A stretch of 64,000 nucleotides of DNA from Thermococcus paralvinellae (GTDB taxonomy: Archaea; Methanobacteriota_B; Thermococci; Thermococcales; Thermococcaceae), in contig NZ_CP006965.1 of the NCBI RefSeq assembly GCF_000517445.1, forward strand, positions 1,588,681 through 1,652,680, in the 5' to 3' direction. A program made the translations under genes and the position numbers. This document shows positions 44,467-50,520 of this stretch, piece by piece. The notes beneath the pieces are model-generated. The model was not told where the DNA came from, did not search any database, and saw nothing but the letters and a program-made list of their open reading frames with translations. Position 1 is the stretch's first letter, and every line of letters starts with the position of its first letter.

Positions 44467-44524
44467 CGGTCAGACCCGCGAAACTTCATCACTAATTCAG
44501 GGGGCTCCAGACTCATCATTCCTT
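44467..44524 (-). ncRNA. C/D box guide RNA with two guides
   Basis: All four boxes match consensus on the minus strand: C box ATGATGA (44519-44513), a 12-nt guide GTCTGGAGCCCC, D' box CTGA (44500-44497), linker ATTA, C' box GTGATGA (44492-44486), a 12-nt guide AGTTTCGCGGGT, and D box CTGA (44473-44470). Guide lengths and spacing are those of archaeal 2'-O-methylation guides. By the N+5 rule the guides point to a C in GGGGCUCCAGAC and a G in ACCCGCGAAACU. A TATA box lies at the right distance upstream. Targets were not searched. Confidence 0.87.
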
Positions 44525-48832: not shown

Positions 48833-49150
48833 TCACGAGTTTTGGGAATACGCTATAGCAAACTTAATACCCACGAACAAGGGAGTTATTAGGAAAAGAG
48901 CGGCATTTTTAAGCTGAGCATTCAGGAGGTAGTAAAATTCAATTCCAAGAGACAGTAAAAGCAACAGCAAAAACATTCCGTAAATTTCTGCCTTCTTAAC
49001 GTCGTAGAGATGCAGACCAAAGATGAGAAAAGCTGAAAAGAGAATTGGATTAACTGGAGTTGGCGGATAAAATCCGGGATACAGTAGAGTTGCCATTATC
49101 CCTACTGCTCCAGTAAAGATATAGAGGAAGGCAAAAATTTTCCTGTTCAT
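48833..49150 (-). CDS. Small membrane protein (unknown)
   Basis: 105 residues with three to four hydrophobic helices. No SD is visible. The ATG lies only 10 bases after the D box of the C/D RNA that joins this gene to hisS, so it is probably read from the hisS transcript. No family was recognised. Confidence 0.6.
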   Translation of the reverse strand: MNRKIFAFLYIFTGAVGIMATLLYPGFYPPTPVNPILFSAFLIFGLHLYDVKKAEIYGMFLLLLLLSLGIEFYYLLNAQLKNAALFLITPLFVGIKFAIAYSQNS

Positions 49151-49157
49151 GTTAATC

Positions 49158-49213
49158 CCGTCAGCTAGTCAGTCCTCTCATCACCTGTCAGCAACGGGTT
49201 TAATCATCACCCA
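49158..49213 (-). ncRNA. C/D box guide RNA overlapping the hisS stop codon
   Basis: On the minus strand: C box GTGATGA (49210-49204), a 12-nt guide TTAAACCCGTTG, D' box CTGA (49191-49188), linker CAG, C' box GTGATGA (49184-49178), a 13-nt guide GAGGACTGACTAG, and D box CTGA (49164-49161). The TGA stop of hisS (49209-49207) is part of the C box. By the N+5 rule the guides point to a G in CAACGGGUUUAA and a U in CUAGUCAGUCCUC. No separate promoter is evident, so it may be cut from the hisS message. An internal CTGA within the second guide gives some uncertainty about that guide's end. Confidence 0.85.
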
Positions 49214-50520
49214 AGCATTTCCTTAACTTCCTCAACTATCTTTTCAATTGCAACGCTCTTCTGTTCTCCAGTTGCCATATCCCTAATCGTGACTTTTCCT
49301 TCAGCCAAATCCCTCTTTCCAAGTATTATAACAACGGGTATTTCAAGCTTATCAGCATACTCCAAAGCTTTCCTCAGCTTTCTGCCCTGCAGATCATACT
49401 CCGCTTTTATTCCAGCTTTCCTAAGGGCTTGGGTTATCTCTATCGCCTTAGCCCTGACTTCAAACTCCTTTCCAATATAAATCACAAAGACATCTGGGCT
49501 TAACCTAAAGCTGGGCAAAAGACCTTTGCTTTCTAAGATTGGGATCAACCTTTCAATTCCAATAGCGAATCCTGTGGCTGGTGTTGGTTTTCCACCGAAG
49601 ACCTCTATTAAGTTGTCATACCTCCCACCGCCCCCGATGGAACCTATTCCCAGCTCGTTAGGAGCTATCGCTTCAAATACAATGCTCGTGTAATAGTCAA
49701 AGCCTCTTGCGATTCCAAAGTCAATTAAAGCGTAATCATAAACACCATAAGCCTTTAGGAGTTCAAATAACTCCTCAATCTTTTTAAGCTCTTCTTTAGC
49801 CTTATCACTCTTGAAAAGCTCATAAGCCTTTGGCAAAATCTCGTCAGGCTTTCCTTTAAGCTCAATCAAAAAGAGAACTTTGTCAATAGCATCATCGCTC
49901 AGTCCAAAGTCCTTGAGTGAAGCAATAAAATCTTCTCTGCTCATCTTGTCTTTCTTATCAATCAAGCGCATTAAGCCAATATCATCTTCAACGCCTAACA
50001 TTTTAGCAAACTCATCTAAAAGAACTCTATCACCTATATTAACGGTGAACTCCTTAAGATCTGTTGCAAGATAGCTCTCAATCATTAGGGCTATTACCTC
50101 GGCATCAGCCTCGATGTTCGCTGAACCTATCAGCTCAACGCCAGCCTGCCAGAACTCCCTCAAGCGGCCGCTTTGAGGTTCTTCATAGCGAAACATGTTA
50201 GTTATGTAGTACCACTTCACAGGCTTTGGAGCATTCTGGAATTTATTAACAAATAAGCGAGCTACGCTTGAGGTCAGATCAGGTCTCAAAGAGATGTCTC
50301 TTCCACCTTTGTCCTTAAATGCATAGAGCTGCTTCACAACTTCCTCTCCGCTCCTAAGCTGAAAGAGTTTGGTGTACTCAAAGGTTGGGGTGAGGATTTC
50401 TTTAAAGCCATAAACCTCAAAGACCTCTCTTATTCTCTCAAACACCCATCTCCTTTTAGCCATGTCCTCTGGAAGCAAATCTCTCGTTCCTTTTACCCTC
50501 TCAATTCTCTCCTTTACCAT
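49207..50520 (-). CDS. hisS: Histidyl-tRNA synthetase
   Basis: 437 residues. Class II motifs: KGTRDLLPEDMAKRRWV at the start, motif 2 in FRYEEPQSGRLREFWQAGVELIG, the histidine-binding GIARGFDYYTSIVFE near residue 268, motif 3 in GFAIGIERL, and a C-terminal anticodon-binding domain (about 335-437). AAGGTGATAAA precedes the ATG. The stop codon lies in the C box of a guide RNA. Confidence 0.96.
   Translation of the reverse strand: MVKERIERVKGTRDLLPEDMAKRRWVFERIREVFEVYGFKEILTPTFEYTKLFQLRSGEEVVKQLYAFKDKGGRDISLRPDLTSSVARLFVNKFQNAPKPVKWYYITNMFRYEEPQSGRLREFWQAGVELIGSANIEADAEVIALMIESYLATDLKEFTVNIGDRVLLDEFAKMLGVEDDIGLMRLIDKKDKMSREDFIASLKDFGLSDDAIDKVLFLIELKGKPDEILPKAYELFKSDKAKEELKKIEELFELLKAYGVYDYALIDFGIARGFDYYTSIVFEAIAPNELGIGSIGGGGRYDNLIEVFGGKPTPATGFAIGIERLIPILESKGLLPSFRLSPDVFVIYIGKEFEVRAKAIEITQALRKAGIKAEYDLQGRKLRKALEYADKLEIPVVIILGKRDLAEGKVTIRDMATGEQKSVAIEKIVEEVKEMLG

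Follow-up and report, generated by a model that had tools for sequence, protein, structure and literature searches.

The 3′ end of hisS raises the question of whether the small RNA that shares the stop codon of this gene is a conventional rRNA modification guide or an element that ties hisS to the gene behind it. Analysis of the window, the whole 64-kb stretch of DNA that contains the locus, indicates that it is very probably an archaeal box C/D sRNA of the conventional double-guide kind that happens to lie next to a membrane gene. The relevant features are the following:

49207..50520, minus strand: hisS, histidyl-tRNA synthetase, 437 aa (Pfam PF13393, PF03129)
49207..49209, minus strand: hisS stop codon TGA, inside the C box
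49161..49210, minus strand: box C/D sRNA, from C box to D box, 50 nt, full motif
49204..49210, minus strand: C box GTGATGA, the first TGA of which is the hisS stop
49192..49203, minus strand: D′ guide TTAAACCCGTTG, 12 nt, predicted target 23S G1515, alternative G2943
49188..49191, minus strand: D′ box CTGA, invariant in alignment A1
49178..49184, minus strand: C′ box GTGATGA, its TGATGA invariant in alignment A1
49165..49177, minus strand: D guide GAGGACTGACTAG, 13 nt, predicted target 23S U1470
49161..49164, minus strand: D box CTGA, invariant in alignment A1
49151..49160, minus strand: 10-nt linker from the D box to the next start codon
48833..49150, minus strand: ORF for a predicted membrane protein of 105 aa, a lineage-specific neighbour (ATG at 49150-49148)

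Read on the minus strand, the end of hisS (...ATG CTT GGG TGA) continues into TGATTAAACCCGTTGCTGACAGGTGATGAGAGGACTGACTAGCTGA and then CGGGATTAAC, which is followed by the ATG of the membrane ORF. All four boxes (C, D′, C′ and D) are perfect, the D′ and C′ boxes are separated by a 3-nt spacer (CAG), and the guide spacers of 12 and 13 nt are those of a canonical archaeal C/D sRNA. The strict C-D′-C′-D pattern occurs twice in the window, at the hisS end and in the Rfam-recognised sR23, and in none of 150 first-order Markov simulations of the window. The generic Rfam model RF00095 matches positions 49158-49214 with 37.7 bits (E 3.7e-6), under its gathering score of 45 bits. We found no conserved terminal stem flanking the C and D boxes and no plasmid match, and a crude consensus count over the 60 nt preceding the sRNA gave no strong TATA-like box. 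The genome encodes the core proteins of the sRNP, with matches over the cut-off for fibrillarin (PF01269), Nop (PF01798) and the L7Ae family (PF01248). The host gene was assigned from its tRNA-synt_His (1e-64) and HGTP_anticodon (5e-22) domains. Two further non-coding RNAs lie on the minus strand of the window: the intergenic sR23 C/D sRNA (44468-44521), above the Rfam gathering score, and the archaeal RNase P RNA (RF00373, 2621-2945).

The overlap with the stop codon was followed in hisS 3′ ends from 87 genomes of the order Thermococcales. Genomes are grouped by the genus labels of the classification tool (g1–g6), with g1 (6 genomes) the genus group of the window and g5 (10 genomes) its sister genus; the sR5 and RF00095 matches and the group sizes suggest that g3 is Pyrococcus-type and g4 Thermococcus-type. 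Every box was intact in all 16 g1 and g5 genomes with a hisS 3′ end, and the C box read RTGATGA in 13 of the 13 distinct aligned sequences, whereas the linker, spacer and downstream DNA varied. TGATGA stood at the hisS stop in each of these 16 genomes and in none of the 69 others with a readable hisS end, among which TAA, TAG and TGA stops all occur. Thus, the C box fixes the hisS stop as TGA where the sRNA is present. A preliminary description of the locus had proposed a guide RNA with the hisS stop inside its C box, and the motif, its conservation and the 23S complementarities described below bear this out. Its span (49150-49213) was right to within a few bases, and the D box does end 10 nt before the ATG of the membrane ORF (linker at 49160-49151). 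Nor had any of the close relatives that keep the hisS stop lost a box, the outcome that would have spoken against that description.

Both guides have a single match in the 16S and 23S rRNA of the same genome. The D guide forms 12 contiguous pairs (two of them G-U) with 23S 1466-1477, and for the D′ guide, positions 2-11 match 23S 1512-1521 through 10 Watson-Crick pairs. Placing the modified nucleotide by the fifth-nucleotide rule, in local 23S numbering, gives Um1470 (D guide) and Gm1515 (D′ guide) as the methylation sites predicted from sequence, 45 nt apart; E. coli 1344 and 1387 are their approximate counterparts in a simple pairwise alignment. A match of this kind turned up for about 1.4% of the shuffled guides, and 0 of 3000 shuffled guide pairs had two matches within 100 nt. 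The target sequences are identical in every Thermococcales 23S sampled, except for one base in G004. That both guides match unique 23S sites 45 nt apart therefore points to a double-guide 2′-O-methylation sRNA, and targets less than 100 nt apart are the published norm for double guides (PMC4644070; PMC7994747).

A sequence model of the family found the guide pair in 63 of 94 genomes (some of the matches partial), with no second full-length copy in the genome of the window. In g3 and g4 the pair sits at a different locus, in the cases examined mostly adjoining and convergent with a GATase gene (PF00117; GuaA-like by its N-terminal sequence); G004, G006 and G008 have only the other neighbour of this locus in common. 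The copy in G004, an orthologue with the same guide pair, reaches 50.9 bits with RF00095 (snoPyro_CD), above the gathering score. The hisS-end sRNA has the box architecture, size and spacing of snoPyro_CD and differs from it in lying at hisS and not at the GATase-associated Pyrococcus/Thermococcus locus. In several g4 genomes, the guide pair and the end of an OsmC-family gene overlap, the TAA stop falling within a guide and the C box GATGATGAG coding for Asp-Asp-Glu. Just behind the hisS genes of g3 (L157, L158, L163-L165) lies another C/D sRNA, sR5 (RF01304), which unlike the hisS-end sRNA of the window has other guides and another target, and does not overlap the stop. Because sR5 is found elsewhere in the other genus groups, its position behind g3 hisS represents a separate arrival. 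The hisS end has, then, received two different, unrelated guides, and the distribution of the guide pair between the hisS and the GATase and OsmC loci, together with sR5, shows that guide genes change host gene within the order. A hisS protein tree with a very distant outgroup did not resolve the root and so gave no direction for the relocation between hisS and the other locus.

The packing of a stop codon into a C box is already known in archaea. According to the results of Tripp et al. 2017 as given in PMC7994747, for 25% of archaeal C/D genes the stop codon of the upstream gene lies inside the sRNA, and in almost half of that set it falls in the C box. The 3′-overlap class described there has a UGA in the C box, no obvious promoter and presumed processing from a longer transcript. 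The hisS-end sRNA shares the UGA, may by the crude TATA count lack a promoter of its own, and would likewise be processed from a longer transcript; the host stop lies within the sRNA in 16 of the 16 overlap-bearing genomes of g1 and g5. With respect to the class as portrayed in that source, nothing essential differs, and the hisS host and its lineage provide further examples. The hisS case is a clean additional example. As no promoter is evident, the sRNA is probably excised from the hisS transcript, an organisation and processing model that the same source already describes. The RNA would be transcribed as part of the hisS messenger and carved from it, with nucleases removing the flanking RNA and the sRNP shielding the 50-nt body. 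Binding of L7Ae, Nop5 and fibrillarin would then direct 2′-O-methylation of 23S U1470 by the D guide and of G1515 by the D′ guide. The hisS TGA doubles as part of the C box, an economical overlap that holds the stop codon as TGA.

The preliminary description went further, proposing that the RNA links hisS to the next gene and that its maturation could affect the expression of both. On this account, sRNP assembly or excision of the guide would cut the messenger between hisS and the membrane gene and so couple guide supply to the expression of both genes. The layout of the window invites the idea, for only 60 nt separate hisS from the next ATG, all of it sRNA and 10-nt linker, and this junction folds better than shuffled sequences (z −2.87). 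Such a link requires the next gene to matter, however, and the comparison with relatives speaks against it. The 105-aa ORF matches no Pfam family, and homologues 74-87% identical to it occur in G047 as well as in the other five g1 genomes. G047 has the membrane gene behind hisS and no sRNA there, whereas the 10 g5 genomes with a hisS end all retain the sRNA and have no co-directional gene behind it. Even within g1, the membrane gene of G091 starts about 1.15 kb downstream of hisS with another ORF, of 268 aa, separating it from the sRNA (191-998 nt past the hisS coding end; L085). Furthermore, PMC7994747 relates reporter experiments by Tripp et al. 2017 in which 3′ overlaps were either neutral for the host gene or slightly negative. 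With a neighbour that is not conserved and published tests of this kind, the proposed effect of maturation on both genes is unsupported, and we consider a regulatory overlap unlikely. A narrower proposal keeps the guide and adds a role in cis, in which the 10-nt leader of the membrane gene serves as a pairing partner of the D′ guide and competition between sRNP assembly and hairpin formation would set the expression of that gene. The D′ guide can indeed pair with the linker TGACGGGATTAA in G000 and G092 (score 9.0, reached by 11 of 18280 22-nt windows). The pairing is uncommon, yet it is absent from the other four g1 genomes (G087, G089, G090 and G091), and we therefore treat it as a curiosity; a cis-regulatory role of this sort is very doubtful. 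The proximity of the membrane gene to the sRNA is incidental.

For T. kodakarensis, it has been suggested that some of the snoRNAs predicted close to transcript 5′ ends are k-turn regulatory elements (PMC4247193), and by analogy the hisS-end motif could, instead of guiding methylation, bind L7Ae as a 3′ UTR or riboswitch-like element. Such an element would have no need of conserved guides complementary to rRNA, whereas each guide has one unique 23S match, the two sites being close together, and both are conserved across gene contexts. The conservation and target evidence led us to reject a k-turn without guide function, which we regard as highly improbable. As TGA is frequent both in the boxes and among stop codons, a fortuitous pattern in the hisS 3′ end also deserves mention; its absence from all 150 simulations, its conservation in 16 of 16 genomes, the copies at unrelated loci and the 23S targets refute this explanation, the probability of which is practically nil. 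Against these alternatives, the conventional double-guide sRNA adds to the archaeal repertoire a well-supported guide with predicted 23S sites and illustrates how a guide gene switches hosts, the overlapped stop being a TGA within the C box at hisS and a TAA within a guide at OsmC. What is new is modest: the change of sRNA host gene within the order, the presence of sR5 at Pyrococcus-type hisS ends and a shift of the D′ guide in g5.

The D′ guide match to G1515 is kept in g1, g3 and g4. In all 10 g5 genomes, positions 2 and 11 of the D′ guide are C instead of U; only 8 pairs are then left at G1515, and in most of these genomes the altered guide makes 10 Watson-Crick pairs at G2943. The sequence GACGGGUUUG is present at 23S 2943 in g1, g2 and g5, and is replaced by GACCCG in g3 and g4. 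The 23S stem at 2929-2948 (own numbering) shows matched changes between genera, CGCCCG...GACGGG in g1, g2 and g5 versus CTCGGG...GACCCG in g3 and g4, and through these changes the guide target is gone in the latter two groups. A retargeting of the hisS-end guide in g5 towards a different 23S site is thus plausible from the complementarities. Additional guide changes in G079 and G083 have no rRNA counterparts, and the covariation for g5 retargeting is to that extent incomplete. The two-base shift, towards a 23S site present in only some of the genera, offers a testable case of guide retargeting. In g1 and g6, an exact guide of the 2943 type (CAAACCCGUCG) is carried by a second C/D-like RNA, for which we found no full-length match in g5. 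This RNA (CCAGATGAGGATTCAAACCCGTCGCTGATTGGTGATGAGAGGGGACCTCGCCGATGG) lies outside the window, at G000:C1:637916-637972 (L285 1501-1557), and is conserved over its full length in g1 and g6. Its D box, CCGA, shares bases with the start codon (ATG) of a metallophosphoesterase gene, which places it in the rare 5′-overlap class. At the same start-codon position in g3 there is an RNA that agrees with it in the D guide and differs in the D′ guide, and the g3 23S lacks the D′ target.
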